From NCBI GenBank assembly GCA_018267585.1, contig JAFDYE010000166.1, positions 1-32,570 on the forward strand: DNA of 32,570 bases, in the 5' to 3' direction. Shown here one piece after another: positions 3,503-30,222 of the stretch (position 1 is its first letter; the number at the start of each line of letters is the position of its first letter). The DNA is from Bacteroidota bacterium (GTDB lineage: Bacteria > Bacteroidota > Bacteroidia > Chitinophagales > Chitinophagaceae). The position numbers and the translations under genes are program-made. The notes beneath the pieces were generated by a model, which worked only from the letters and a program-made list of their open reading frames with translations, was not told the origin of the DNA and made no database searches.

Positions 3503-3913
3503 CTATTCTCTTGCGAGGTCAGCGATCGTCTTCTTTTCCAGGATCTTCAGGTTGGCATCCCGAACCTGTGACATCACCGAGTGAAGACCACAGCTCTTTT
3601 CGTCGCAGTTCTTACAGCGTTCGTAGAAATAGAGGCTGACGCAGGGCAGGAGAGAGATGGGACCGTCCAGCAACCGCATGACCGTCGCAAGCGGTACGTC
3701 CTTCGGGTTCTTGGCGAAATAGTATCCTCCTCCTTTCCCTTTCTTGCTTTCCAGGATATTTGCATTCTTCAGCTCGAGCAGAATATTTTCCAGGAATTTC
3801 AGCGGGATCTTTTTCTTCTTGGCGATCTCGGCGATCAGCACTGGCTCGTCTTTTTCTTTTTGCGCCAGGTACATCAGGGCCTGAAAGGCATATTGGGTCT
3901 TTTTGGAAAGCAT
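3503..3913 (-). CDS. Rrf2-family transcriptional regulator with Cys cluster
   Basis: A 136-residue Rrf2 protein. The winged HTH lies at about residues 1-75 (MLSKKTQYAFQALMYLA, then IAEIAKKKKIPLKFLENILLELK and a wing SKKGKGGGYYFAKNP), and the following helix is DVPLATVMRLLDGP. Four cysteines, C91, C100, C103 and C108, sit where IscR/NsrR-type proteins bind an Fe-S cluster, so redox, iron-sulfur or cysteine sensing is likely. It is the last gene of the minus-strand par-dapB block, 49 bp after dapB. Rrf2 regulators control Fe-S biogenesis, NO stress or cysteine metabolism in other bacteria. Its targets here are unknown; the cys operon about 26 kb away is one candidate, with no direct evidence. 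Confidence 0.88.
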   Translation of the reverse strand: MLSKKTQYAFQALMYLAQKEKDEPVLIAEIAKKKKIPLKFLENILLELKNANILESKKGKGGGYYFAKNPKDVPLATVMRLLDGPISLLPCVSLYFYERCKNCDEKSCGLHSVMSQVRDANLKILEKKTIADLARE

Positions 3914-17394: not shown

Positions 17395-18390
17395 TTGTTC
17401 CAAAATTCCCACTTGAAATTAACAGAAGGGCTGTTCTCCCTCTCCGAGTCCACTCTTGCCCCCCGCGCCCTGGAAATATTCGCCTTTCAGTATGCTGAGA
17501 ACCCGCTGTATCGCCAGTATGTCCAAACGCTGGGGATCGATCCGGCCACTGTCCATACACTATACGATATTCCCTTTCTTCCGGTTGCCTTCTTTAAAAC
17601 ACACTCCGTCCGGAGCGGGGCACCAGGACCGGCTGATGTCGTGTTCGAGAGCAGCGGTACCACCGGAATGGTCACCAGCCGCCACGAGGTAAAAGACGTC
17701 GATCTGTACAGGAAAAGCTTTTTCGCCGCTTTCCAACAGTCATATGGGCCTGTCAATGAATGGTGTATCATCGGCCTCCTGCCTGCCTATCTGGAAAGGA
17801 GCAATTCTTCGCTCGTGTTCATGGTCGACGAGCTGATCCGGGCCAGCGGCCACCCGGACAGCGGCACCTATCTGTACGACCACGAAACCCTGCACCGTGT
17901 CCTCCGGCGACTTGAACAGCAGGGGCAGAAGACGCTGGTGATCGGCGTGACCTTCGCGTTGCTGGATTTCGCGGAAAAATATGAAATGAAGCTTGGCCAT
18001 ACCGTGATCATGGAGACCGGCGGCATGAAGGGCCGGCGAAAGGAGATCACCCGCGCCGAACTGCACGAGGTGCTGACCCGCCGCCTGGGAGTGGCTTCCA
18101 TCCACGCCGAATATGGAATGACCGAGCTGCTGTCCCAGGCCTATTCCCATGGACAAGGCCTGTTCCGGTGTCCGCCCTGGATGAAGGTACTGGTCCGTAA
18201 AGAAGATGATCCGCTGGACATCAGCGGCGAAGGAGAGGGGATCGTCAATATCATCGACCTCGCCAATATATGGTCCTGCGCTTTTATTGCGACGGACGAC
18301 GTCGGCCGTATATTGCCTGACGGAACCTTTCAGATATCTGGACGGGTTGACAATAGCGATATACGCGGGTGCAGCCTTTTAGTGGTGTAA
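17395..18390 (+). CDS. LuxE/acyl-protein synthetase-like enzyme
   Basis: A 331-residue member of the LuxE (acyl-protein synthetase) family within the adenylate-forming group. The ATP/AMP-binding motif ESSGTTG is at 85-91. Other family features are HAEYGMTELLSQAYS and the late TDDVGRILPDGTFQISGRVDNSDIRGC. The start is a TTG at 17395: the in-frame stop at 17380-17382 excludes anything further upstream, and an AAAAGGGGG purine run precedes it. Such enzymes activate a carboxylic or fatty acid as acyl-AMP and pass it to a protein thiol. The substrate here is unknown. No lux genes are present; relatives occur in polysaccharide and lipid clusters. Its 3' end overlaps the convergent siroheme synthase-TSUP gene by 12 bp. 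Confidence 0.82.
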   Translation: MFQNSHLKLTEGLFSLSESTLAPRALEIFAFQYAENPLYRQYVQTLGIDPATVHTLYDIPFLPVAFFKTHSVRSGAPGPADVVFESSGTTGMVTSRHEVKDVDLYRKSFFAAFQQSYGPVNEWCIIGLLPAYLERSNSSLVFMVDELIRASGHPDSGTYLYDHETLHRVLRRLEQQGQKTLVIGVTFALLDFAEKYEMKLGHTVIMETGGMKGRRKEITRAELHEVLTRRLGVASIHAEYGMTELLSQAYSHGQGLFRCPPWMKVLVRKEDDPLDISGEGEGIVNIIDLANIWSCAFIATDDVGRILPDGTFQISGRVDNSDIRGCSLLVV

Positions 18391-19911
18391 CAACCCCGCA
18401 GCAGCCAGGGCCTTCCACAGCGTCCAGGCACTGGTGACCATCACCAGTGTACCCACAGCTACGAACATCGTCTTCACCGGCAGCTTGCCTACCAGCCTTG
18501 CCGCAATCGGGGCAGCAAGTATCCCCCCGAGTATCATTCCGGCGACGTCCAGGAGGGGAATGCTCTTAAGGAGTATAAAGAAGGTGATCGAGCTCGACAG
18601 GACGACAAAGAATTCAGCCAGGCAGACCGAACCGATGACGTAGCGGGGATTTCGGCGCTTGGCGATCAGGGTGCTGGTGACCAGCGTTCCCCACCCGCCG
18701 CCGGCAAATGCGTCCAGGAACCCGCCGGCCGACGCCAGCCAGCCGGCCCGCCGGACCTTGTCTTTGGGGTTGCGTTTGGCGAAGGCCTTCCGTAAGATAT
18801 AGTAACCCAGATAGACCGTATAGACCGACAGCGGAATCCGTACCCACTGCGAATACTCCTTACCGAAATAGGCCGCGGCGGCCCCGAGGACGGCCCCGAT
18901 AATGCCCGGCACCACGATTGTCCGGAACAGCTTTTTGTTGATATTGCCAAATCGGTGATGACTATAGCCCGAGACGCCGCTGGAGAATACCCGCGCCGAA
19001 TGCACGCGGCTGCTGACGATGGCAGGAGGGACGCCATAAGCAAGCAGGAAGGTGGTGGAAATCGTGCCATAACCAAGCCCCAGCGAGCCGTCCACCATTT
19101 GCGCAAGAAAACCCGCAAGCGTCATGACCAGGAAGCCGGTGCTGTCGATTGGCAAGCCGCGCACATAGTCGACCAGACCAGTGAGGGGTACCATCGACAG
19201 CAGTCCGTGCCCAAGTATCATAAAGAGAAAGGCCAGCAGACACCATTTCACGATCTGCTGCCATTTGGCCGGTTTCGGCTTGGCCAGAATTTCAACCGGC
19301 GGCGCGGCCTGTTTGGCCACCAGCACCATTGTCAGGTCGTTCAGCTTCCGCACCTTCTCGGAAAAATCCCCGTTGAGACCCTGGCGGAGGGTCTGCATAT
19401 TCTCCAGGACGTTGTCCATTTCATCGGGGATCAGGCTCCCTATCTCTTCCTTCAGCCGTTTGGCGATGGTGGGCGACTTGCCGTTGGTGGAGATCGCTAT
19501 CTTGAGGTGGCCCTTGCGGACGATCGAGCTCAGATAGAAATCGCAGAGGTCGGGCGTGTCGGCTACGTTGACCAGCAGCCCCGCCGCCCGCGTTTGCTTC
19601 GCGACGGCCTCGCTGACGGCCCGGTCGTTCACGGCTACGATGACGATATCGGCATATTCCAGGTCGTTCGGGTGATAAGGCCTTTCCAGCAGCCGGATTC
19701 CCGGATGGCGCTCTGCGAGTTCGCGGACAGATTCCGATATCTGCGGCGCGACCACTGTGACCTTTGTAGCCGGCGAATTTTGCAATACAGCCTGCAGCTT
19801 CTCTAGTCCGACATTGCCGGCGCCGACCAAAAGAAGCCTGAGCCGCTCTAGTTTTACAAACAGCGGGAACAAATGATTTTCAGTTTCGACCTCAGCTTTT
19901 ATATCTCCCAT
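18379..19911 (-). CDS. Siroheme synthase (Met8/CysG-N type) fused to TSUP sulfite exporter-like transporter
   Basis: A 510-residue fusion. The ATG at 19911 (MGDIKAEVETENHLFPLFVKL) is chosen because the open frame further upstream is antisense to nothing and overlaps the TonB tail hairpins. Residues about 12-200 are a precorrin-2 dehydrogenase/ferrochelatase domain: the NAD-binding LLVGAGNVGLEKL (27-39), NVADTPDLCDF with the likely catalytic Asp118, and IAISTNGKSPTIAKRLKEEI (139-158). From about 218 on, seven to nine membrane helices form a TauE/SafE (TSUP) transporter with duplicated LAGFLAQMVDGSLGLGYGT and SAGGFLDAFAGGGWGTL motifs. The first part would make siroheme for CysI; the second could export sulfite or a related anion. 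It follows the TonB receptor by 25 bp. Confidence 0.88.
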   Translation of the reverse strand: MGDIKAEVETENHLFPLFVKLERLRLLLVGAGNVGLEKLQAVLQNSPATKVTVVAPQISESVRELAERHPGIRLLERPYHPNDLEYADIVIVAVNDRAVSEAVAKQTRAAGLLVNVADTPDLCDFYLSSIVRKGHLKIAISTNGKSPTIAKRLKEEIGSLIPDEMDNVLENMQTLRQGLNGDFSEKVRKLNDLTMVLVAKQAAPPVEILAKPKPAKWQQIVKWCLLAFLFMILGHGLLSMVPLTGLVDYVRGLPIDSTGFLVMTLAGFLAQMVDGSLGLGYGTISTTFLLAYGVPPAIVSSRVHSARVFSSGVSGYSHHRFGNINKKLFRTIVVPGIIGAVLGAAAAYFGKEYSQWVRIPLSVYTVYLGYYILRKAFAKRNPKDKVRRAGWLASAGGFLDAFAGGGWGTLVTSTLIAKRRNPRYVIGSVCLAEFFVVLSSSITFFILLKSIPLLDVAGMILGGILAAPIAARLVGKLPVKTMFVAVGTLVMVTSAWTLWKALAAAGLLHH

Positions 19912-19932
19912 TTCATTAATGATTGACCACTC

Positions 19933-19974
19933 GACCTTAGGGTCTCGCGGGCGAACTGGCCTTCCGGCCAGTTC
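19933..19974. repeat. Tandem hairpins covering the TonB receptor stop codon
   Basis: Two perfect inverted repeats sit side by side: GAACTGGCC-TTCC-GGCCAGTTC (19953-19974) and GACC-TTAG-GGTC (19933-19944). The stop codon of the TonB receptor (19937-19939) falls in the loop of the second. The element is translated as the receptor's last residues. There is no T-tract, so it is probably an intergenic palindromic element rather than a terminator. Confidence 0.7.
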
Positions 19975-22783
19975 CGTCAAATACGATCGTGATGTAATAA
20001 AACCCTCCGATCGATGGCCCCCCAAGATACTGGTAATATTTTTTATTCAGCAGATTAGTAGCCCCCAATTTTAGTGTACTAAACAATTCCGGTATCCGGT
20101 AGTTGACCTGGGCGTCGATCGTGCTATAGGCCGGCACGTTCCCCGCAGCCAGAGGGCTGTTCCAGTAGAAGGCGTTCTGCCAGTGCCAGCCGACGTTAAA
20201 GCCGGTATTCTTCAGGATCTCGCGGTTGCCGATGTTCAGGTTGGTGATCCAGTTCGGCGTATTAAAGGCGGGGGTGAAGGCGTCGGTCGACTCCGAACTG
20301 ACGATCGCCGCGTAGCTGGCGTTGCCCGTGATGGTGAACTTCTTATAGAAATTATAGCTTGCTCCCAGCTCGACGCCATTATTGGTCACTTTGCTCCTGG
20401 AATTGGTCCACATCTTGTATTTCGTGACCGACCCGGAATAGATCTGTGTAGCCGTATTAACATTTACTCCGCCGCCGATGGTCCCGTTCTTCGGCTGGGT
20501 GATATCCAGCTGGCCGATAAAGTTGTCGTAGACGCTGAAATAATAGTCCACGTCCACGAACAGCCTGTTGTTCAGCAACACGCCCTTATAGCCGGCTTCG
20601 AAGGAATTGATATGCTCTGGCTGGATATAACCGTAGGTGCTTTGTACCAGGATACCCGCCTCCTTCTGTATCGCTGCTGCCTGCGTAATCCCGCTGCCGC
20701 TGTTGAGGTCGGCATTGACCGCATTCTTAAATGCGGTGACTGAAGAGTTGATATAGGAGTTCCCGAATGCCTGCGTATGCTGCGCGATCACGGGCAGCCC
20801 GCCCAGCCGGCGCACGCCGCCGTTGTTGACATAGGCAAAGCCTTCGAATAGGGTGGGGAACCGGTAGCCGTTCTGGAACGATGCCCTGAAATTATGCTGT
20901 GCCGTAGGTGAGTAGACCGCCGCAACCCTGGGATTGAACTTCGTGCTGAAATACTCTGTCTTGTCGGCCCTTAGACTAGCCGTCAGCTTGAGCTTTTCTT
21001 CGAAGAGCTTCTTCGTCAGCTGTATAAACCCGCCGTAGGTATAGTAGTCAAACCGGCTGTCCGCCTGCTTCGAATCCGCATAGGCATTCGGATTGACGTA
21101 GTTGTTGCCGTCCGGTGTGACGAAATAGTTGCGATAGTTCGCACCGGCAAGCACCTGTATGAAGGGGATCAGCCGGGAGAAGTCGTACTGACCCTCGAAA
21201 TGGACGAAGGCCGATCTCAATTTCATCTGCGCACCCACCGTATCCCAGTTGTTCGTATGGATGACCTTGTTGCGCACGCTGTCGAACGACCGGGTGCCTG
21301 GCAGGAACCGCCCGTTGTCGGCAAAGGCGCGTGCCGCATTCAGCGATGCCTGTACGTTCTGCGTGGTAGGAGCCGCAACGGCGTTGTAGGCGTTGTTAAA
21401 GCCAGTGGTAAAATCATTCCACCACTGCGGCGATTTTTTGAAGGCCATATCGATATTCTCTCCCAGCGGCCGGAAATTGAAGGAGTTGTCCCCGGTGTTC
21501 TCGGTAGTGTAATAACCCTTGAGGCTAAGCCCACCTGTCCGGATATCCAGCGCATGCTGCTGGATGCGCTCGCCGTCCAGCCGCACCCTGTTGCCGCGCT
21601 GATAGTTGTTTGTCACCACGCCGATGCGGTACGTATAGGAGATCTCTGTGCCGGCATTGGGACGGAAGTGGATGGCGGCGTCGGCCTTCGTATTCTTTAC
21701 GGCATAGTCCGTCAGGTCTTTTTCCAGGTAGCCGCTGCGCGAGACGTCGTATTTCTTCCCGGCAAGCGTGAGCGTCCTGAGGTCGCTGTTGTATTCGTCG
21801 CCATAGCGGTTGATGAGGTCTGCACCGGGATTTACGGCGGCCACAGATGCATTGGTCTTGTTCCCCACGTCAAAATACTGGTCATGCTGGTTGTTGGCGA
21901 TCCAGTCGGTACCCTCGGAATGCGCCACATTGATCTTGAACGCCCATTTGGGGTTCAGCACTTTCGCCCAGCGGATGGCCGACTCGGAATAGAGCGCGGC
22001 GTTGTGGTCCTTGTCATTGACGTGATTGACGCCTAGTTTCTGGTATACGCTCAGCCCTTCGTACTGGAAGGGTGATTTTGTCTTCAGGTTTGCGATGCCG
22101 TTGATGGCGTTCAGGCCGTAGATGGCGGAGGCCGCGCCGGGTATCAGCTCGACGCTTTCGATATCCAGCTCCGTCGGCCCGACCGCATTGGCGACAGGAG
22201 CCCCGATGCCCGGAGAAATATTATCGACGCCGTCTACCATTTGCAAGAACCGGCTGTTGGTCGTCCCCGAAAACCCTCTCGTATTGGGCACCTTATAGCC
22301 CAGGCTGAGCGTCGTCATCTGTACCCCCTTTACATTTTCCAGCGCATCATAAAAAGTGGGAGCCGGACTCTCTTTTATGGCCCGAAGGTCCAGCTTTTCG
22401 ATCGTCACCGGACTACGCAGGATGCTTTCCGATACACGGCTCGCCGTCACGACGACCTGGTCTACCAGCACGCGCCTCGTATTCAGCGCGATGGAGATGC
22501 CAGTGGTGCCATCGCCGCTGACAAGGAATTCCTGGCTTTTAAAGCCGATGGAGGTCACCACCAGGGTCAGCGGCAGCTTTTGCGCAGTCCTCAGGTGAAA
22601 GCTGCCGTCCTCTGCGGCAGTGGTGCCTATCGCCGTACCCTTGATCCTGACTGTCGCGGCCCCCAGGGGCTGGTTGCCCACCGAGTCAAAGACCTTGCCT
22701 GAGATGATATATGGGTCCTGCGCAAGAATGCGCGTCCCCGTCAAGAGAACTAAAATGGTCAATATTCCGGATAAACGCTTCAT
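19937..22783 (-). CDS. TonB-dependent outer membrane receptor in the sulfur assimilation locus
   Basis: A 948-residue receptor. The signal peptide is MKRLSGILTILVLLTGTRILAQ. Next comes a CarboxypepD_reg-like beta-sandwich (about 25-110: ISGKVFDSVGNQPLGAATVRIKG), then the plug (about 115-240, with PNTRGFSGTTNSRFLQMVDG and ELIPGAASAIYGLNAINGI), then a 22-strand-type barrel. The barrel ends at GGFYYITIVF, with the expected terminal Phe, but the frame continues for 13 residues (DGTGRKASSPARP) through a hairpin element. There is no SusD partner, so this is not a typical glycan system. Between sulfite reductase and the siroheme synthase-TSUP gene, uptake of a sulfur compound, a metal chelate or a siroheme precursor is plausible but unproven. 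A terminator separates it from cysI. Confidence 0.92.
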   Translation of the reverse strand: MKRLSGILTILVLLTGTRILAQDPYIISGKVFDSVGNQPLGAATVRIKGTAIGTTAAEDGSFHLRTAQKLPLTLVVTSIGFKSQEFLVSGDGTTGISIALNTRRVLVDQVVVTASRVSESILRSPVTIEKLDLRAIKESPAPTFYDALENVKGVQMTTLSLGYKVPNTRGFSGTTNSRFLQMVDGVDNISPGIGAPVANAVGPTELDIESVELIPGAASAIYGLNAINGIANLKTKSPFQYEGLSVYQKLGVNHVNDKDHNAALYSESAIRWAKVLNPKWAFKINVAHSEGTDWIANNQHDQYFDVGNKTNASVAAVNPGADLINRYGDEYNSDLRTLTLAGKKYDVSRSGYLEKDLTDYAVKNTKADAAIHFRPNAGTEISYTYRIGVVTNNYQRGNRVRLDGERIQQHALDIRTGGLSLKGYYTTENTGDNSFNFRPLGENIDMAFKKSPQWWNDFTTGFNNAYNAVAAPTTQNVQASLNAARAFADNGRFLPGTRSFDSVRNKVIHTNNWDTVGAQMKLRSAFVHFEGQYDFSRLIPFIQVLAGANYRNYFVTPDGNNYVNPNAYADSKQADSRFDYYTYGGFIQLTKKLFEEKLKLTASLRADKTEYFSTKFNPRVAAVYSPTAQHNFRASFQNGYRFPTLFEGFAYVNNGGVRRLGGLPVIAQHTQAFGNSYINSSVTAFKNAVNADLNSGSGITQAAAIQKEAGILVQSTYGYIQPEHINSFEAGYKGVLLNNRLFVDVDYYFSVYDNFIGQLDITQPKNGTIGGGVNVNTATQIYSGSVTKYKMWTNSRSKVTNNGVELGASYNFYKKFTITGNASYAAIVSSESTDAFTPAFNTPNWITNLNIGNREILKNTGFNVGWHWQNAFYWNSPLAAGNVPAYSTIDAQVNYRIPELFSTLKLGATNLLNKKYYQYLGGPSIGGFYYITIVFDGTGRKASSPARP

Positions 22784-22868: not shown

Positions 22869-24545
22869 TTATTGTTTATACCATTTTTGACGCAGCGCGA
22901 AGTCACCGAACCGTTCGCCGGTGATCCGCTCTTTTTTGTACAGCCAGAACAGCAGGTCCAGTTCTTTCAGGATCGCCGCCTCGTCCAGGTTCTCCTTATA
23001 GATCCTGTTCAGCCTGGTCCCTTCATGGTCTCCGCACAGGTGCATATTGTAATGGCCCAGGGCAGTTCCGACAAAACCGATCTCCGCTGCATAGGGACGC
23101 CCGCAGCCGTTGGGGCAGCCGGTCATCCGGATGATGATCTGTTCTTCGCCGAGCTCATACTTGTCCAGCAGCCCTTCGATCTTACCAAGCAGGGTGGGCA
23201 GGTAGCGCTGCGCCTCCGCCAGGGCCAGGCCGCATGTCGGCAGGGCAACACACGCGATCGCGTTCTTTCGGACAGCAGAGGCTGCCTCCGTATGTTCGAT
23301 GATCCGGTATTTCTCGAGTATCTTCTGGATCGCAGCCTTGTCTTTGGCCTTGATATCAGACAGGATCAGGTTCTGTGTGCCGGTGAAACGGATATTGGCT
23401 TTCCCCGTTTCCGCCACTTCCAGCAGCGCAGTCTTCATCGCAACTTTTTCGTCGTCGACCACTCTTCCGCATTCGACATAGGGAGTATAGTACCAGAGTC
23501 CCTTGTGATTCTGTGTCCACCCGTAGTGGTCGACCCGGTCGGTAAACACAAAGGGGCGCGCGTCTTCCAGCGGAAAGCCCACTCTTTTTTCCAGCTCGGC
23601 ACGGTACCAGTCCAGACCATATTTGTCGACGGTATATTTCAGGCGGGCCAGTTTTCGGTCGCTACGGTTGCCATAGTCGCGCTGGATCGTAACGACCTCG
23701 TAAATGGCCTTGAATAATTTCTCGTCGTCCGCCGGCACGTAACAGAGTACGCTGGCCAGCCTCGGATAGGTCTCGGCATTGCCGTGCGTGGCGCCAAGTC
23801 CGCCGCCGATGGCGAAGTTGAATCCTTTCAGCTGCCCGTTCTCGATGATGGCGATCAGCGCCAGGTCATTGGTGAGTACGTCGATATCGTTGTTGGGCGG
23901 GATGACCAGGCCGATCTTGAATTTTCGGGGAAGATAGCGGTCCTGGTACAGGGGATCTTCCTCGTCCTTCTTATTGGTCAGCTTCTCTTCGTCCAGCCAT
24001 ATCTCATAAAAAGCCCGGGTCTTCGGCAGCAGCAGCGCACTGATGCGGGCAGCATAGCCGTGCACCTGTTCGTGGAGCTCGGATTCCATCGGATGGGCGG
24101 CGGCCGTAACATTGCGATTGACGTCGCCGCAGGCGGCAATGGAGTCGAGGTGCACATTGCTAAAGGCCTTCAGTGTCGGCTTGATCCTGCTCCTCAGTAT
24201 TCCGTGCAGCTGAATGGTCTGGCGGGTGGTGACCTTGATGGTGCCCGTGCTGTTCTCACCGGCGACGTGGTGAATGGCGATCCATTGTTCGGGCGTTAGA
24301 AAGCCTCCCGGTACCCGTAGCCTCACCATAAAGGAATACAGGCGCTCGAGCTTTTTTTCGGCGCGCTCTTCCCGCCGGTCGCGGTCGTCCTGCATGTACA
24401 TACCGTGGAACTTTACCAGGGCAGTGTCGTCATCTGCGATGGCGCCCGTGACCTCGTTCTTCAGTCCTTCAACGAGGGTGCCTCTGAGTCCATCGCTATT
24501 TTGTTTGATCCTTTCGGTGCTCGATAAGTTCTTGTTTTGCTCCAT
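22869..24545 (-). CDS. cysI: Assimilatory sulfite reductase hemoprotein (beta) subunit
   Basis: A 558-residue siroheme/4Fe-4S sulfite reductase. Cluster ligands are visible as CVALPTCGLALAEAQRYLP (Cys-x5-Cys) and MTGCPNGCGRPY (Cys-x3-Cys, the last bridging to siroheme). Other conserved motifs are TTRQTIQLHG, AACGDVNRNV and GGLGATHGN. It reduces sulfite to sulfide with six electrons, supplied by the flavoprotein encoded just upstream (1-bp gap). The length is close to E. coli CysI (570). CysI is preferred over the ferredoxin-dependent type because it is next to cysJ. It is the last gene before the operon terminator. Confidence 0.96.
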   Translation of the reverse strand: MEQNKNLSSTERIKQNSDGLRGTLVEGLKNEVTGAIADDDTALVKFHGMYMQDDRDRREERAEKKLERLYSFMVRLRVPGGFLTPEQWIAIHHVAGENSTGTIKVTTRQTIQLHGILRSRIKPTLKAFSNVHLDSIAACGDVNRNVTAAAHPMESELHEQVHGYAARISALLLPKTRAFYEIWLDEEKLTNKKDEEDPLYQDRYLPRKFKIGLVIPPNNDIDVLTNDLALIAIIENGQLKGFNFAIGGGLGATHGNAETYPRLASVLCYVPADDEKLFKAIYEVVTIQRDYGNRSDRKLARLKYTVDKYGLDWYRAELEKRVGFPLEDARPFVFTDRVDHYGWTQNHKGLWYYTPYVECGRVVDDEKVAMKTALLEVAETGKANIRFTGTQNLILSDIKAKDKAAIQKILEKYRIIEHTEAASAVRKNAIACVALPTCGLALAEAQRYLPTLLGKIEGLLDKYELGEEQIIIRMTGCPNGCGRPYAAEIGFVGTALGHYNMHLCGDHEGTRLNRIYKENLDEAAILKELDLLFWLYKKERITGERFGDFALRQKWYKQ

Positions 24546-24546
24546 C

Positions 24547-26265
24547 TTAGTATACGTCTTTTACATAGCGTCCAGCCTCTTTCAGCTCGTCGAGCCAGGC
24601 TTCGGCCTGTGATTGTGTCTTCTTTCCTTCCTCTTTGATGATCTCCAGCAGGGCGGCTTCCACGTCTACGCTCATCGGCTCTTTGGTGCCGCATACATAG
24701 ACATAGGCGCCGTCTTCCAGCCAGCGGTAGAGCTCGGCCGCCTCGCGGCGCATCTTGTGCTGGACATAGACCTTTTCTTTCTGGTCCCTCGAAAAGGCGG
24801 TGTTCAGGCGGGTCAGGACGCCGGTCTGCATCCAGTTCTGCAGGTCGGTCTGGTAGAGAAAGTCGGTGGTGAAATGCTGGTCACCGAAGAAGAGCCAGTT
24901 CCGCCCCGAAGCGCCCTGGCTGTCGCGATGGGCTAAGAAGCTGCGGAAGGGGGCGATCCCTGTCCCCGGCCCGATCATGATCACGTCCTTATCTTCCGCG
25001 GGTAGCCTGAACTGTGAATTCCTGTGAATATAGAAGTCGAGGGACCCGTCAGCAGACAACTGGGACAGAAGGTCAGAGCAGAGGCCGTGTTTGGTCTCAC
25101 CGTTGACGCTAAAACTGTCCCGGGTCACGGTCAGGTGTATCTCACCGCTGTGTGCCTCGGGAGAGGATGAAATGCTGTACAGTCTTGGGGCGGTCGGCTC
25201 GAGTATCGAAATGACCTCGTGGAACTGCGCAGCATCTTTCACCGGGTAGATCTTCAGGAGGTCGAGCAGGCCGATCCTTGTTTCCGGTATATCCTGCTGG
25301 ACGATGGCCGCGTATTTCTTTACCACGCGCTCGGGAAGATAGACGATGTTGAGCCGCTTTCTCAACAGGTGTCCGATGGTCGCCTCTTCCTGGCGGATCG
25401 TCAGCTTGCGGTTGGGATCCGCGCCTGTGAGCGCAAGTATCGCCTCGACCGTGGCGGCTGGATTCTCGGGGACGAGCCCGAGGGCATCGCCCGGCAGATA
25501 GTCAACTCCCTCCGCAGCTATCTCGAGGTGGTGGGTCTTTTTGGAAGAGCCCCGGTCGTTGAGGTTGATGTTGGCGAGCACGGTGCCGGTATAGGTTTTT
25601 TTTCCGGTAGGTCTGGCAGCCGTTGCAGGCGCCGCCGCCGGCGCAGAGGCGCCGCCGGATGTGCTGAGCTGCTGTAATACGGTTTCGAACCATTTTCCGG
25701 CCTGCGAATCATAGTCGGTATCGCATTTTTCCAGCGCGACTATCCGCTGACCGCCGGCCTTGTTCAGCTGGTGGTCGACGTCCTCTCCGGCCTTGCAGAA
25801 CAAGGGGTAGGAGGTGTCGCCGAGAGCAAGCACGCCGTATTTCAGCCGCTCGAGCTTCAGGCTGCCCTGGTGGATATGGTCGTAGAATTTCTTTGCCGCG
25901 GCAGGTGGTTCACCGTCGCCCTGGGTGCTGATCACCGCGAAAAAGTATTCTTCTTTTGTCAGGTCGCCCAGGCGATATTGTTCGAGGCCGATCAGCCTGG
26001 CGTTGATGCCCTTCTTTTTTGCCTTTGCCGCGAAGTCGCTGGCTAATTTTTTTGAGTTGCCGGTCTCGGTGCCATAGGCGATGGTTATCTTATTGACGGT
26101 TGGCGCCGCGGGCGTCGACAATGCCGGTACCGCCTGTGATCCGGTGGTCGCCTGTCCCTGACCCGCGGCAACGCCCGCCAGATAGCCGCTCAGCCAGACC
26201 AGCTCTTCCCGGGAGGAGCCGGCGATCAATTCCTGTATCTGCGTCAGTTTGGGCGTTGTTAGCAT
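24547..26265 (-). CDS. cysJ: Sulfite reductase flavoprotein (alpha) subunit
   Basis: A 572-residue diflavin reductase. After an N-terminal helical region and a low-complexity Ala/Thr/Pro linker (about 35-57), the flavodoxin-like FMN domain starts at ITIAYGTETGNSKKLA (60-75). A second Ala/Pro linker (GGASAPAAAPATAARP) leads to the FAD domain, with LYSISSSPEAHSGEIHLTV, followed by the NADPH-binding module with GPGTGIAPFRSFL and the C-terminal YVCGTKEPMSVDVEAAL. It passes electrons from NADPH to CysI. Its ATG overlaps the end of cobA by 7 bp and its stop is 1 bp before cysI, so translation is probably coupled. Confidence 0.95.
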   Translation of the reverse strand: MLTTPKLTQIQELIAGSSREELVWLSGYLAGVAAGQGQATTGSQAVPALSTPAAPTVNKITIAYGTETGNSKKLASDFAAKAKKKGINARLIGLEQYRLGDLTKEEYFFAVISTQGDGEPPAAAKKFYDHIHQGSLKLERLKYGVLALGDTSYPLFCKAGEDVDHQLNKAGGQRIVALEKCDTDYDSQAGKWFETVLQQLSTSGGASAPAAAPATAARPTGKKTYTGTVLANINLNDRGSSKKTHHLEIAAEGVDYLPGDALGLVPENPAATVEAILALTGADPNRKLTIRQEEATIGHLLRKRLNIVYLPERVVKKYAAIVQQDIPETRIGLLDLLKIYPVKDAAQFHEVISILEPTAPRLYSISSSPEAHSGEIHLTVTRDSFSVNGETKHGLCSDLLSQLSADGSLDFYIHRNSQFRLPAEDKDVIMIGPGTGIAPFRSFLAHRDSQGASGRNWLFFGDQHFTTDFLYQTDLQNWMQTGVLTRLNTAFSRDQKEKVYVQHKMRREAAELYRWLEDGAYVYVCGTKEPMSVDVEAALLEIIKEEGKKTQSQAEAWLDELKEAGRYVKDVY

Positions 26266-27086
26266 ACTAGCTTCTTTTTTATTTGTTGCTCCACTACGGG
26301 TGGAAAATATAGTTGTTCTTCTGTTGCGTCGCTCTTCCAGCCGAAGGCCTGGTGCAGCGCCGCCACTTTCCCGATGATGATAAGGGAGGGGGATGCATAC
26401 TGTGTACCCCCTGCAGCCGCGATGTATTCGTGCACCGGCAACGCGGTCACGCGTTGCTGGGGCGTGGTGGCCTGCTCGATCACCGCCACCCAGCGGTCCG
26501 CGGGTATGCCGTATTCGACCAGCCGGCCGACCAGCTCATCCAGCGGCTGTGATGACATATAAAAGACCAGGGTGTCTTCGGTGCGCGCCAGGTCCTGCCA
26601 GTAGGAGACATCGATCCGGTCGCTGCGCCATGCCGTAAGGAACCTGACCGCTGCGGCGTGTTTTCTCGCCGTCAGGGGTATGCCGGCATAGGCTGCCGCT
26701 CCGAGCGCCGCAGTCACGCCCGGCACCAGCTCATAGGGGATGCCGTGGCTCACCAGCGTCTGCAATTCGTCCAGCACGTTGGAGAAGATGGATACGTCTC
26801 CGCCCTTTAGCCGGACGACCCGGCGCCCCAGCAGGGCGTGTTCTACGAGCAGGTCATTGATGGCGGTCTGCGGAGTGCTGGCCTCGCTGTTGCACTGTTT
26901 GCCGACGGGTATGATGAGCGCATCCTCCCGGACGTACTCCGACAGGATGACCGGGCTGACCAGTCTGTCCGTGATGACCACGTCCGCCTGCTGCAGATGA
27001 CGCAGCGCCTTCAGGGTCAGCAGTTCCGGGTCTCCAGGTCCTGCACCCACGAGGAATACTTTTCCGATATGTTTGACACTGTGCAT
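26259..27086 (-). CDS. cobA: Uroporphyrinogen-III C-methyltransferase
   Basis: A single-domain SUMT of 275 residues. Motifs: VFLVGAGPGDPELLTLKALRHL at the N-terminus (the SAM-binding GxGxGDxxLLTxxA), RLKGGDVSIF, and ELVPGVTAALGAAAYAGIPLT. It methylates uroporphyrinogen III twice to precorrin-2, the first committed step to siroheme. The product can be oxidised and metallated by the Met8-like domain encoded at 18379-19911, so both halves of siroheme synthesis are in this locus but on separate proteins. It starts 8 bp after the cysN stop and overlaps cysJ. A symbol of cysG would be misleading because the C-terminal half only is present. Confidence 0.94.
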   Translation of the reverse strand: MHSVKHIGKVFLVGAGPGDPELLTLKALRHLQQADVVITDRLVSPVILSEYVREDALIIPVGKQCNSEASTPQTAINDLLVEHALLGRRVVRLKGGDVSIFSNVLDELQTLVSHGIPYELVPGVTAALGAAAYAGIPLTARKHAAAVRFLTAWRSDRIDVSYWQDLARTEDTLVFYMSSQPLDELVGRLVEYGIPADRWVAVIEQATTPQQRVTALPVHEYIAAAGGTQYASPSLIIIGKVAALHQAFGWKSDATEEQLYFPPVVEQQIKKKLVC

Positions 27087-27094
27087 TGACTATA

Positions 27095-28336
27095 TTATTG
27101 CACCATGCAGGCGCCTACCGTTACATAACTCGTTTCGTCGATCAGAATGGCTCCGCCGCCCACGGGAAGGTCTGCATACCGGTCGAAGGGCAGGGGAGAA
27201 GCCGTCCTGATCGTAGCCTTTACGATATCGTTCAGACCTGCCTGTTCGGGTGCCGGGAGTTTCTCGAGGGTATTGACGTCCAATTTATATTCGATCTCTT
27301 TTACCATCCCGCGCACCGTCCGGCTGCCCAGCTGCACGAGATACTTGTTGCCCGGCGCCAGGGTCTTGCTGTCCATCCAGCAGAGCAGCACGTCGAATTC
27401 CTGCTCGACACGGGGCAGCTCTTCGCCGCTGACCAGCAGGTCTCCCCGGCTGATATCGATATCGTCTTCCAGCTGAAGGATCACGCTCTGCGGAGCAAAC
27501 GCCTCTTGGACGGCCGCGCCGCCGACCTCGATGCTCCTGATCCTGCTGGTCTGGCCCGAAGGCAATACCGTGACGGTCTCTCCCTTTTTATATGTGCCGC
27601 TGGCGATCTTCCCGGCATAGCCACGATAGTCGTGTAATTCCTCTGTCTGGGGACGGATCACATACTGCACGCTCAGTCTGCCGCGTCTGAGATCAATATC
27701 ATGGTCTATCTCAATATTTTCCAGCACGTCGAGCAGCGCAGGGCCGTCGTACCAGGAGATGGCCGTCGAACGTTCGACGATATTGTCGCCTTTCAGTGCG
27801 CTGATCGGCAGATAGGTCACGTCCTTGAGTCCCAGCGTGCGGGCGACCTCCGCATAGTCGATGACGATATTATTGTATCGATCCTGCGAATAATCCACCA
27901 GGTCCATCTTATTGATGGCGACGACCACGTGCGGGATATTCAGCAGCGAGGCGATGATGGAATGGCGGCGGGTCTGCTCTACCACGCCGTTGCGGGCGTC
28001 GACGAGGATGATGATGAGGTTCGCGTTGGAAGCGCCGGTCACCATATTCCGCGTATATTGGATATGTCCGGGCGCGTCGGCGATGATGAATTTACGCTTT
28101 GGCGTAGAAAAATATTTATAGGCTACGTCGATGGTGATGCCCTGCTCGCGTTCGGCTCTCAGACCGTCGGTCAGCAGCGCAAGGTCGATCTCGCCGTCTT
28201 CCCTGTTCTTGCTTTGTTTCTCGAGGGCTTCCAGCTGGTCGGCCAGAATACTCTTGCTGTCGTATAAAAGTCTCCCGATCAGGGTGCTTTTCCCGTCGTC
28301 CACGCTGCCTGCAGTTATAAAGCGAAGTAAGTCCAT
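27095..28336 (-). CDS. cysN: Sulfate adenylyltransferase large (GTPase) subunit
   Basis: A 413-residue CysN. The translational-GTPase motifs are in order: G1 GSVDDGKST (10-18), the switch region REQGITIDVAYKYF, G3 DAPGHIQYTRNM and G4 NKMDLVDYS. Two beta-barrel domains follow. GTP hydrolysis drives CysD to make adenylyl sulfate (APS) from ATP and sulfate. It is shorter than E. coli CysN (475) and carries no APS kinase extension, which agrees with the APS-type reductase upstream. The 30-bp gap from cysD contains a GGACC-ACG-GGTCC hairpin at 28354-28366. Confidence 0.96.
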   Translation of the reverse strand: MDLLRFITAGSVDDGKSTLIGRLLYDSKSILADQLEALEKQSKNREDGEIDLALLTDGLRAEREQGITIDVAYKYFSTPKRKFIIADAPGHIQYTRNMVTGASNANLIIILVDARNGVVEQTRRHSIIASLLNIPHVVVAINKMDLVDYSQDRYNNIVIDYAEVARTLGLKDVTYLPISALKGDNIVERSTAISWYDGPALLDVLENIEIDHDIDLRRGRLSVQYVIRPQTEELHDYRGYAGKIASGTYKKGETVTVLPSGQTSRIRSIEVGGAAVQEAFAPQSVILQLEDDIDISRGDLLVSGEELPRVEQEFDVLLCWMDSKTLAPGNKYLVQLGSRTVRGMVKEIEYKLDVNTLEKLPAPEQAGLNDIVKATIRTASPLPFDRYADLPVGGGAILIDETSYVTVGACMVQ

Positions 28337-28366: not shown

Positions 28367-29284
28367 TCAGAAATAACCATTCTTTTTCCTGTCCTCCATC
28401 GCGGCCTCCGACACCCGGTCGTCGATACGCGTCTCACCGCGCTCAGAAGTCCTGGTAGCCGTGATCTCACGAATAATATCATCGATGACCGCAGCCGATG
28501 ATTCCACAGCCGCCGTACAGGTCATATCCCCAACTGTCCGGTATCGAACCCGCACCTTTTGCACCTGGTCCGTTGCATCCAGGCGGATAAAAGGTGAAAC
28601 CGCTACCCACTGGCCCTGGAAGTCGATCACCTCGCGATCGTGCGCGAAATAGATGGACGGCAGGTCGATCTTCTCCCGGCGGATATAGTTCCAGATATCC
28701 AGCTCGGTCCAGTTGCTGATCGGGAAAGCCCTTACGTTCTCTCCTTTCCGGATGCGGCCGTTGTAGATATTCCACAGCTCGGGCCGCTGCCGTTTGGGAT
28801 CCCAGCCACCGAACTCGTCCCGTACCGAGAAGATCCGCTCTTTGGCGCGAGCCTTCTCCTCGTCACGACGAGCCCCGCCGATGCAGGCGTCGAAATGGAA
28901 CTCTTCGATCGTATCCAGCAGGGTGAAGGTCTGCAGCGCATTGCGGCTCGCGAATTTGCCGACGGGCTCGGTGAGCTGCCGCTGGCGGATCGTGTCTTCT
29001 ACCCTTCTTACGATCAGCTTCTCGCCGATGCGCTCTGCAAGCGCATCCCGAAATTCCAGCGCCTCAGGAAAATTGTGTCCCGTGTCGATGTGCACGAGAG
29101 GGAAGGGGAATTTACCCGGCCGAAAAGCCTTCAGCGCCAGGTGCACCAGGGTAATGGAGTCTTTGCCTCCGCTGAACAGCAGGGCCGGACGTTCAAACTG
29201 GCCCGCCACTTCCCGCAGGATATGGATGGCTTCCGATTCCAGCTGGTCCAGGTAGTCTAACCGATAATTATTTTCTTTGCTCAT
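28367..29284 (-). CDS. cysD: Sulfate adenylyltransferase small subunit
   Basis: A 305-residue CysD. I chose the ATG at 29284 (MSKENNYRLDYLDQLESEA); the 44 open codons before it overlap cysH antisense-frame noise and lack family similarity. The PP-loop ATP pyrophosphatase motif SGGKDS is at 38-43 (PALLFSGGKDSITLVHLALK). Other family motifs are HIDTGHNFPE, CIGGARRDEEKARAKER and FPISNWTELDIWNYI. With CysN it forms ATP sulfurylase. The start is 1 bp from the cysH stop, so the two genes are tightly coupled. Confidence 0.96.
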   Translation of the reverse strand: MSKENNYRLDYLDQLESEAIHILREVAGQFERPALLFSGGKDSITLVHLALKAFRPGKFPFPLVHIDTGHNFPEALEFRDALAERIGEKLIVRRVEDTIRQRQLTEPVGKFASRNALQTFTLLDTIEEFHFDACIGGARRDEEKARAKERIFSVRDEFGGWDPKRQRPELWNIYNGRIRKGENVRAFPISNWTELDIWNYIRREKIDLPSIYFAHDREVIDFQGQWVAVSPFIRLDATDQVQKVRVRYRTVGDMTCTAAVESSAAVIDDIIREITATRTSERGETRIDDRVSEAAMEDRKKNGYF

Positions 29285-29285
29285 A

Positions 29286-30008
29286 TTAATTCGAGTGTAG
29301 TCCACATTCTTTTTTACTATTGTCTTCCCACCACCACCTTCCCGCACGGAAGTCCTCACCGGCACGGATAGCGCGCGTACAGGGAGCACAGCCAATGCTG
29401 ACAAAGCCACGGTCATGCAGCGGATTATACGGCACGTCGTTCCTGTCGATATACGAGCGAACCGCGTCGGTGTCCCAATGCAGCAGTGGGTTATACTTGA
29501 CGACCTTGTTGCCTTCGTCCCATTCGAGAACGGTGTGGTCCTTCCGTTCGGGTGAATGCTCCGCCCGCAGCCCCGTTACCCAGATGGTTTGTCCCTGCAA
29601 AGCCCTGCGCAGCGGTTCGACCTTCCGGATAAAGCAACACTCCTTCCGGTTGGCCACCGACTCATAAAAAGCATTGGGCCCTTTCTGGTCAAGAAATTTC
29701 TCGAGCAGGTCACGGTCCGGATAATAGGCTTTTACCCGGGTATCGTATTTGCTGTTGGTGGCGCTCCATACCGAATAGGTCTCGGCAAAGAGACGACCGG
29801 TGTCCAGCGTAAAGATGGATATGGGCAGACCGTCGGTAAGGATGTGATGGGCGATCACCTGGTCCTCGATACTAAAGCTGGTCGAGAAGGTTACCTGGCC
29901 GGGGAATCTATCTGTCAGGAGGCGAAGTGATTCAGAAATGGATAATCCACTAATTAAGTGGAGTAATTGGGTTGTCGTTTCCTGTGTTGTTATCGTTGCA
30001 TTGTTCAT
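29286..30008 (-). CDS. cysH: Adenylyl-sulfate (APS) reductase, 4Fe-4S type
   Basis: A 240-residue reductase starting at the ATG at 30008 (MNNATITTQE). The PP-loop-like region is VTFSTSFSIEDQVI, then TLDTGRLFAET. Four cysteines that bind a 4Fe-4S cluster in APS reductases are present: C124-C125 (RKECCFIRK) and C207-C210 (GCAPCTRAI). The catalytic Cys235 is in the C-terminal KKECGLH. True PAPS reductases lack the CC/CxxC set, so APS is the likely substrate. This fits the absence of an APS kinase gene. It is the first structural gene of the cys operon and is preceded by a Cys-rich leader ORF. It has no recognisable Shine-Dalgarno; the sequence before the ATG is CACCACCACCACCGGATC. Confidence 0.95.
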   Translation of the reverse strand: MNNATITTQETTTQLLHLISGLSISESLRLLTDRFPGQVTFSTSFSIEDQVIAHHILTDGLPISIFTLDTGRLFAETYSVWSATNSKYDTRVKAYYPDRDLLEKFLDQKGPNAFYESVANRKECCFIRKVEPLRRALQGQTIWVTGLRAEHSPERKDHTVLEWDEGNKVVKYNPLLHWDTDAVRSYIDRNDVPYNPLHDRGFVSIGCAPCTRAIRAGEDFRAGRWWWEDNSKKECGLHSN

Positions 30009-30077
30009 GATCCGGTGGTGGTGGTTGTTTTCGAAAGAAAATGAATTCTCTGGCGAAGGCGTTCGGATAGACAAAGA
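30009..30077 (-). promoter_or_regulatory. Leader RNA segment between the poly-Cys ORF and cysH
   Basis: A 69-nt spacer with several pairing options. AACAAC at 30029-30024, about 15 nt before the cysH ATG, can pair with the GTTGTT formed by the Cys codons. CGGAT directly before the ATG (30014-30010) can pair with ATCCG at 30068-30064. GATCA at the cysH start can pair with TGATC at the leader-ORF stop. TTTTC-TTTC-GAAAA is a local hairpin. No T-tracted terminator is seen, so control of translation or Rho access is more likely than classical attenuation. Confidence 0.45.
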
Positions 30078-30143
30078 TCAACAGCAACAACAACAGGCGT
30101 TGTTATAAGAAGAAAAGAAGTGATATGAAGATGGTGTGTGCAT
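30078..30143 (-). CDS. Poly-cysteine leader peptide of the cys operon
   Basis: A 21-codon ORF, too short for normal gene calling. From the ATG at 30143 it reads MHTPSSYHFFSSYNNA and then five consecutive Cys codons (TGT, TGT, TGT, TGC, TGT) directly before a TGA. It lies 69 nt upstream of cysH on the same strand, downstream of the likely promoter. Asn14-Asn15 codons (AACAAC, 30104-30099) pair with the GTTGTT of the Cys codons (30094-30089) around a GCCT loop, extended by A-U and U-G pairs to 8 bp, so a ribosome stalled for Cys-tRNA would disrupt the hairpin. Cys-rich upstream ORFs that sense cysteine are known in mycobacteria; I do not know of one described in Bacteroidota. No homologues were checked, so translation is unproven. 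Confidence 0.7.
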   Translation of the reverse strand: MHTPSSYHFFSSYNNACCCCC

Positions 30144-30156
30144 TAAACTTTTACTT

Positions 30157-30222
30157 GTCTACCATTGTTATGGACAAAGATAGTCTACCAAATTGATATA
30201 AAAAAGAATTTTTTCTACAAAA
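30157..30222 (-). promoter_or_regulatory. Candidate cys operon promoter with GTCTACCA direct repeats
   Basis: Two identical 8-mers (plus strand GTCTACCA, minus strand TGGTAGAC) at 30157-30164 and 30183-30190 are spaced 26 bp. On the minus strand, TTTG at 30221-30218 and TCAATTTG at 30196-30189 are 21 nt apart and resemble -33/-7 elements. A perfect TATCTTTG at 30182-30175 is an alternative -7 element. Either way the 8-mers flank or overlap the transcription start, as repressor sites would. ATCTTTGTCYAT is also repeated at 30181-30170 and 30078-30067, flanking the leader ORF. Confidence 0.5.

Follow-up and report, generated by a model that had tools for sequence, protein, structure and literature searches.

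The polycysteine open reading frames (ORFs) of mycobacteria are, following Canestrari in 2020, reportedly leaderless, and a ribosome stalled within them is said to free a ribosome-binding site downstream. Excerpts of other mycobacterial studies place short ORFs with a terminal cluster of Cys codons upstream of cysteine and sulfur genes (Shell 2015, PMC4633059), describe downstream expression that follows ribosome speed and cysteine, and term the arrangement translation attenuation (PMC13236596, PMC9031893). In the accessible portion of the study by Seliverstov (2005, PMC1262725), the cys leaders predicted for Actinobacteria carry Cys codons near the stop, have no terminator, and are accompanied by pyrimidine-rich putative Rho sites. 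Descriptions of cysteine control in Bacteroidota are few. The original prediction that no leader of this kind had been reported from the phylum holds for cysteine, for which a literature search found no Bacteroidota example (weak evidence of absence, with subscription papers mostly outside its scope), but not for amino-acid operons at large: clues for leader-peptide attenuation appear in the available part of the Flavobacterium psychrophilum transcriptome (PMC9723704). Those suggested attenuators come from the same phylum and have structured 5′ regions, with no cysteine operon named in that part of the paper, whereas the leader considered here has no terminator.

A Cys-codon leader ahead of a sulfate assimilation operon

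The locus lies in a window of 32,570 nucleotides, the whole stretch of DNA analysed, from a draft genome within the Chitinophagaceae. The ORF at 30143-30078(-), with the letters ATG...TGTTGTTGTTGCTGTTGA, translates to MHTPSSYHFFSSYNNACCCCC followed by a stop. Reading of the sequence confirms this ORF, its five Cys codons, the 69-nt gap to cysH and two copies of AACAAC, one inside the ORF (30104-30099) and one before the cysH start (30029-30024), all as first described; NCBIfam assignments likewise agree with the gene order cysHDN-cobA-cysJI. The features of the leader and operon are as follows.

30078..30143, minus strand: leader peptide ORF, 21 codons plus TGA, MHTPSSYHFFSSYNNACCCCC then stop (sequence read; conserved in relatives)
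30081..30095, minus strand: five consecutive Cys codons, TGT TGT TGT TGC TGT, directly 5′ of the stop
30009..30077, minus strand: 69-nt spacer from the leader stop to the cysH ATG (30008), with 23 C and 9 G and without an intrinsic terminator
29289..30008, minus strand: cysH (phosphoadenylyl/adenylyl-sulfate reductase), which opens the operon; coordinates exclude the stop codon (NCBIfam)
29973..30008, minus strand: cysH codons 1-12, with which the Cys codons are predicted to pair (folding model)
28370..29284, minus strand: cysD, without stop codon (NCBIfam)
27095..28336, minus strand: cysN (NCBIfam)
26259..27086, minus strand: cobA / uroporphyrinogen-III C-methyltransferase (NCBIfam)
24547..26265, minus strand: cysJ-like sulfite reductase flavoprotein (NCBIfam)
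22869..24545, minus strand: cysI sulfite reductase hemoprotein (NCBIfam)
19937..22783, minus strand: TonB-dependent receptor, 3′ of cysI (NCBIfam)

An ORF after the receptor, 18379-20025(-), resembles by eye a fusion of a siroheme-synthase N-terminal domain with a TauE-type membrane exporter. No Rfam family, riboswitches included, matches the window at gathering score.

As in the available descriptions of mycobacteria, the Cys cluster stands at the end of its ORF beside the stop and upstream of cysteine genes. The window leader differs in its phylum, in a predicted 5′ UTR that probably makes it not leaderless, and in the predicted hidden site, which is the first codons of cysH and not a Shine-Dalgarno sequence. 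With the Actinobacterial cys leaders, as far as the accessible text describes them, it shares terminal Cys codons, the lack of a terminator and a pyrimidine-rich stretch; here, in another phylum, the C bias is tested against controls and the leader is traced over dozens of genomes. In the broad features of amino-acid leader-peptide attenuators, a codon run for the product of the pathway within a conserved ORF, the locus conforms, the run being conserved as well; the intrinsic terminator and competing antiterminator of the trp type are absent, with a terminator in 0/46 leaders and no conserved fold. The window leader is probably convergent with the known poly-Cys leaders.

Conservation and character of the leader

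Five Cys codons followed by TRR (a pattern that also admits TGG) match the 7.0-Mb draft genome three times. The window copy is the sole match within a short intergenic ORF, and the remaining two overlap longer ORFs on another frame or strand; two poly-Cys sites of the same genome from a separate search (C116 and C358) are left out of this reading. The DNA pattern proved uninformative across 248 genomes because 243 of them had matches. Conservation was instead scored by the presence, at most 300 nt upstream of cysH, of a short ORF holding three or more Cys within six residues, against a dinucleotide-shuffle expectation. Such ORFs occur at 21 of 24 further congeneric loci (0.5 expected) and at 27 of 52 loci of the order, a set that takes in the window itself and three congeners (2.8 expected). 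At a threshold of four Cys in six, the counts are 19/24 and 23/52, versus 0.02 and 0.2 expected, and on the antisense strand the same Cys-cluster test yields only 2 in the congeneric set and 4 in the order set. cysH itself is present in 32/33 genus genomes, 53/248 order genomes and 150/395 phylum genomes. The order set comprises 52 of the 53 matches, without one of 33% identity (G182); the genus set comprises 27 new loci, 24 scored and three ending at contig ends, with four more already in the order set and one broken locus (G631) left out. Cys-codon tails are visible at two of the three loci cut by contig ends (L152, L158). Three congeners (L164, L168, L172) have leader-like ORFs with just one or two Cys, possibly decayed leaders.

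The distribution of the leader follows the position of cysH. Where cysH heads its transcription unit, a leader precedes it at 27 of 37 order loci; where it does not, as judged by a frame on the same strand, 120 codons or longer, that ends within 110 nt of cysH, the count is 0/15 (Fisher p 7e-7, optimistic, as are the other p-values, because the loci are kin). No Cys cluster is found at 10/37 head loci in the order and at 3/24 congeners. The claim that five Cys codons before cysH are unlikely to be an accident is upheld by the shuffle tests and by this restriction to operon heads, and alignment of cysH upstream regions, the check suggested with it, finds start, frame and Cys run conserved in relatives. 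The predicted Cys-codon leader before cysH is beyond chance.

Outside the order, five of 60 loci, sampled from the 138 genomes with a cysH match, pass the three-Cys test versus 1.35 expected. Three of the five (L100, L110, L124) are probably frames inside genes, judged by eye, so Cys clusters at cysH are rare there; L144 and L109 are the clear cases. Among named genomes, for which 80 of 585 loci were kept, 15 were flagged, and several of these resemble frames inside genes. In L144, from a distant family of the phylum, the leader MIFAISCCCCCCSKSLCSLM is followed by a terminator-like hairpin and then by cysH. Two distant phylum members (L139, L141) have Cys-rich short ORFs, ..MHTCMCNNCMCCC and ..MRACACCC, several hundred nt before cysH, with a gene resembling DUF2061 by eye standing in between.

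The character of the peptide was examined in 46 leaders hand-picked from loci showing a Cys cluster, 42 of which entered the mask and accessibility tests; outside this set stand L008, the weak leaders L164, L168 and L172, and the clade members L152, L153 and L158. Leader length has a median of 21 aa and a range of 13-42, with at least 30 aa in 6/46, and the start position is set wrong in four of the 46, which touches length and start counts only. Cys is the final residue before the stop in 37/46 and makes up 27% of residues after the first, at spacings that differ from leader to leader. Ten close leader pairs show replacement changes in 7/60 Cys columns versus 53/138 others (p 1e-4, from pairs that share sequences and an alignment guided by Cys), and the non-Cys residues drift. 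Leaders also prefer TGT over TGC more than cysH does (189:82 vs 90:79, p 5e-4). TGY runs do arise by chance in other frames, but an accidental small ORF, or a Cys-rich small protein functional in its own right, is a scarcely credible account of a leader conserved far above shuffles, restricted to operon heads and drifting at its other residues; five leaders give no Pfam match and no NCBIfam match above cut-off.

The ribosome tunnel holds 30-40 residues, and most leaders are shorter, which makes codon sensing likelier than peptide sensing. With a median of 21 residues and Cys at the extreme end, the Cys would still lie inside a tunnel of this length; Cys spacing is variable, and the genes downstream are those of sulfate assimilation. 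These points make it improbable that the nascent Cys-rich peptide itself, and not tRNA charging, senses metal, sulfide or redox state in the manner of CruR. A precedent is the Bordetella copper-sensing uORF, described in the available part of PMC9426467 with a CXXC motif and Rho coupling. That CruR / DUF2946 uORF resembles the window leader, on this partial account, as an upstream ORF whose ribosome governs a C>G region and the genes downstream. Unlike the leader here, which has 21 residues and terminal Cys codons, CruR proteins form a copper-sensing family marked by CXXC and RAPP motifs. The originally proposed role of the leader as a putative sensor of cysteinyl-tRNA through ribosome stalling is well supported by comparison, in the conserved leader, start, frame and Cys run; the two AACAAC pairings put forward with it do not stand.

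Proposed coupling of the leader to cysH

In that proposal, the GTTGTT of the Cys codons paired with either copy of AACAAC. The partition function gives the Cys run ~0 pairs with either copy and ~15 with cysH 30008-29973. Over 46 leaders, the duplex of the Cys run with the spacer (spacer plus 12 nt of cysH) is not above shuffles (mean z -0.17), and pairing with the distal copy at 30029-30024 is rejected on the ~0 pairs together with this shuffle-level duplex. Pairing with the in-ORF copy is stronger than in dinucleotide shuffles (mean z -1.05, 46 leaders) but shows no excess over synonymous variants (mean z -0.09 in the genus, -0.11 in the rest); the in-ORF hairpin is a by-product of Asn/Ser/Cys codons, with synonymous choices giving as much. 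Nor does the whole 211-nt leader fold better than shuffles (z -0.95, 31/200), and RNAalifold on 20 congeners returns a conserved fold limited to the promoter palindrome. Of the folding checks first suggested, RNAalifold finds no conserved leader fold, and in the model occluding the Cys codons opens the cysH start at the window locus.

The predicted duplex joins 30097-30079 with 29998-29981 (cysH codons 4-10), together with a short helix beside the start codon. With the Cys codons masked, opening the cysH start at the window locus costs 5.9 kcal/mol less, a gain matched by 0/200 shuffles and 2/200 synonymous cysH variants (p 0.049 in a smaller test), and a mask on the leader start leaves that cost unchanged. 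At the eight loci nearest by cysH, the duplex exceeds that of synonymous variants with a combined p of 0.003, or 0.015 without the window's own locus; taken singly, only three of the eight fall below p 0.05, and for accessibility the gain stands at p 0.09 once the window's own locus is left out. Across all 46 leaders, the pairing is not above that elsewhere in cysH (one-sided p 0.86) or in synonymous variants (0.85), and it is weaker outside the genus. A Cys-region mask gains 1.78 kcal/mol over 42 related loci, versus 0.16 in shuffles (p 4e-5), with masks on other leader parts also opening the start at similar mean gains. A test of the mycobacterial type, in which the Cys tract hides the start, is thus strong at the window locus, present in part of the nearest clade and absent family-wide.

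On balance, the leader probably senses charged cysteinyl-tRNA for cysH-D-N-cobA-J-I, with coupling through pairing of Cys codons with cysH codons. When Cys-tRNA is ample, the ribosome would pass the five Cys codons, terminate and depart, after which the U/G-rich Cys codons could fold onto the first cysH codons, hiding the start region and turning the operon off. When cysteine is scarce, the ribosome would stall at the Cys codons and block this pairing, so that cysH and the downstream genes would be expressed. The cysH start is freed to the same extent whether the ribosome sits at the leader stop codon or on the Cys codons, and the model therefore requires fast ribosome release. We infer that the leader is translated, that ribosomes stall on it, that the response runs in this direction, and that pairing and not Rho is the coupling step.

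Because the pairing of the Cys run with cysH is not family-wide, Rho-dependent control is a serious rival, though a less probable one. The same Cys-tRNA sensor would serve: a ribosome that completes the leader would expose a C-rich, G-poor, unstructured spacer on which Rho loads to end transcription ahead of cysH or in its first part, and one held at the Cys codons would exclude Rho. Spacers of the 46 leaders are 26% C and 11% G, with C>G in 44/46, compared with 20% C, 17% G and C>G in 67/105 control upstream regions (p 4e-13, uncorrected for kinship), and YC dimers stand at 0.165 per nt in spacers versus 0.093 in controls. A terminator is found in 0/46 leaders, and spacers show no fold excess on average (mean MFE z -0.06). 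An identical idea is put forward for the Actinobacterial cys leaders in the portion of PMC1262725 that is accessible, and coupling of this kind is demonstrated for the CruR uORF in the excerpt of PMC9426467. Against this, the sequence surrounding the spacer at the window locus has more structure than its shuffles (z -2.46), spacers are short at ~55 nt and only their first part would lie under a stalled ribosome, and pyrimidine richness might equally be kept to avoid pairing with the Cys codons. The Rho gene was also not found in this draft genome (95% complete, 929 contigs); 58 of 68 genomes searched, the own included, have a match above the curated cut-off and 64/68 some match, one of them negligible, and the missing gene is probably an assembly gap. 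Translational unmasking by loss of the pairing ranks first for this species and Rho second, with the sensor common to both.

Spacer length bears on a further reading, in which translation of the leader merely supplies ribosomes to cysH by reinitiation or coupling and the Cys run tunes the rate. The spacers are short and narrow in length (median 55.5 nt over 46 leaders), and the literature already contains the idea that ribosomes reinitiate at leader peptides (available part of PMC4833913), but this reading is quite improbable: it leaves unexplained both the retention of Cys codons and the association with cysteine genes, and it predicts reduced expression in cysteine shortage.

Attenuation of the classical kind, by an intrinsic terminator and an antiterminator, has a clear representative in the phylum. 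At four Flavobacterium-type loci (L106; L205, F. limnosediminis; L209, F. humi; L220, F. urocaniciphilum), tandem Met/Cys leaders precede cysH, with a terminator after each. The complement of the terminator 5′ arm falls within the leader ~9-18 nt past the Met/Cys run in 8/8 leader-terminator pairs, and differences between genomes in the terminator and leader segments preserve pairing. Only three of 14 named Flavobacterium records were flagged, making the tandem-attenuator layout a minority in this genus. By these predicted devices, the textbook form of attenuation is represented in Bacteroidota by Cys/Met leaders placed before cysH. For the window it is very improbable: a terminator-like hairpin between the leader end and cysH+40 is found in 0/46 Chitinophagales leaders, the window's included (shuffle expectation 0.08), and the sole terminator-like site near the locus (30249-30226) is upstream of the promoter.

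Predicted promoter, operator-like palindrome and a second tRNA-Cys gene

Three further features of the window concern initiation at the operon.

30175..30182, minus strand: predicted -7 promoter element, TATCTTTG (fit to consensus)
30157..30175, minus strand: operator-like palindrome, GTCCATAACAATGGTAGAC, at the predicted transcription start
3503..3913, minus strand: Rrf2-family regulator, candidate operator reader

The octamer TATCTTTG (30182-30175) fits TANNTTTG, the consensus of the Bacteroidota -7 element. This element occurs within 110 nt upstream of 39/46 leaders versus a shuffle expectation of 3.3; at the window locus 31 nt separate its end from the start of the ORF, and the 5′ UTR is predicted from this distance. 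The palindrome is present at the start site of 24/24 congeneric leaders and 4/22 others, where shuffles predict 0.04 of 46. Four other matches to it occur in the own genome, three inside genes and one that precedes a tRNA-Cys(GCA) gene by 33 nt (G000:C822:24805-24928; L088, L269).

A search of the genus with this tRNA-Cys finds 48 places in 26/33 genomes. The 15 full-length matches (L269-L282, L295) are without exception called tRNA-Cys, and each is preceded by the palindrome at a distance of 4-171 nt, compared with 0/13 ordinary tRNA-Cys loci (L283-L292, L294, L296, L297). The other tRNA-Cys of the own genome (L299) is without the palindrome, and L293, L322 and L327 are with it; across these 32 genes in all, it lies upstream of 18 and downstream of none. 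The operator pattern, which was tightened after the cysH and tRNA-Cys sites were known, accompanies at least 26 of the 48 tRNA places in at least 18 of the 26 genomes, one of those 26 places being a 21-nt fragment uncalled by ARAGORN and two operator places being approximated. Among the matches listed, more operator sites (L319, L330, L331, L336, L343, L346) precede TonB-type receptors, an ABC transporter, PhyH oxygenases, ceramidase-like genes, a ComA phosphosulfolactate synthase and an ECF sigma factor. The sites probably mark a sulfur-linked regulon.

The Rrf2 regulator encoded at 3503-3913 shares 45-68% identity, over ~130 residues, with Rrf2 genes that lie ahead of cysH in other Bacteroidia, as they do in 10/12 loci, the 12 having been chosen for it. 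The regulator is a candidate reader of the palindromic operator. If it does read this operator, expression of the operon, and of the tRNA whose charge state the leader gauges, would increase when sulfur runs short. Only tentatively can the parts be joined into one scheme, in which a single operator, probably read by Rrf2, would drive a sulfate operon whose leader measures tRNA-Cys charge along with a dedicated second tRNA-Cys, adjusting the ligand of the sensor with the pathway. The leader in this scheme would be free of Shine-Dalgarno sites, its Cys codons would pair with cysH codons, and the output device would have been exchanged in the evolution of the phylum.

A tRNA-Cys gene under the operator of an operon that reads tRNA-Cys charging would, if true, be an unusual feedback design; the literature search found nothing like it, which is weak evidence. 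If the reading is right, poly-Cys leaders evolved in two or more distant phyla, with couplings that differ. Bacteroidota largely do without Shine-Dalgarno sites, and the leader would offer a case in which to examine how ribosome stalling turns into control of genes in such bacteria. It also supplies a simple annotation rule for missed small genes ahead of cys operons.
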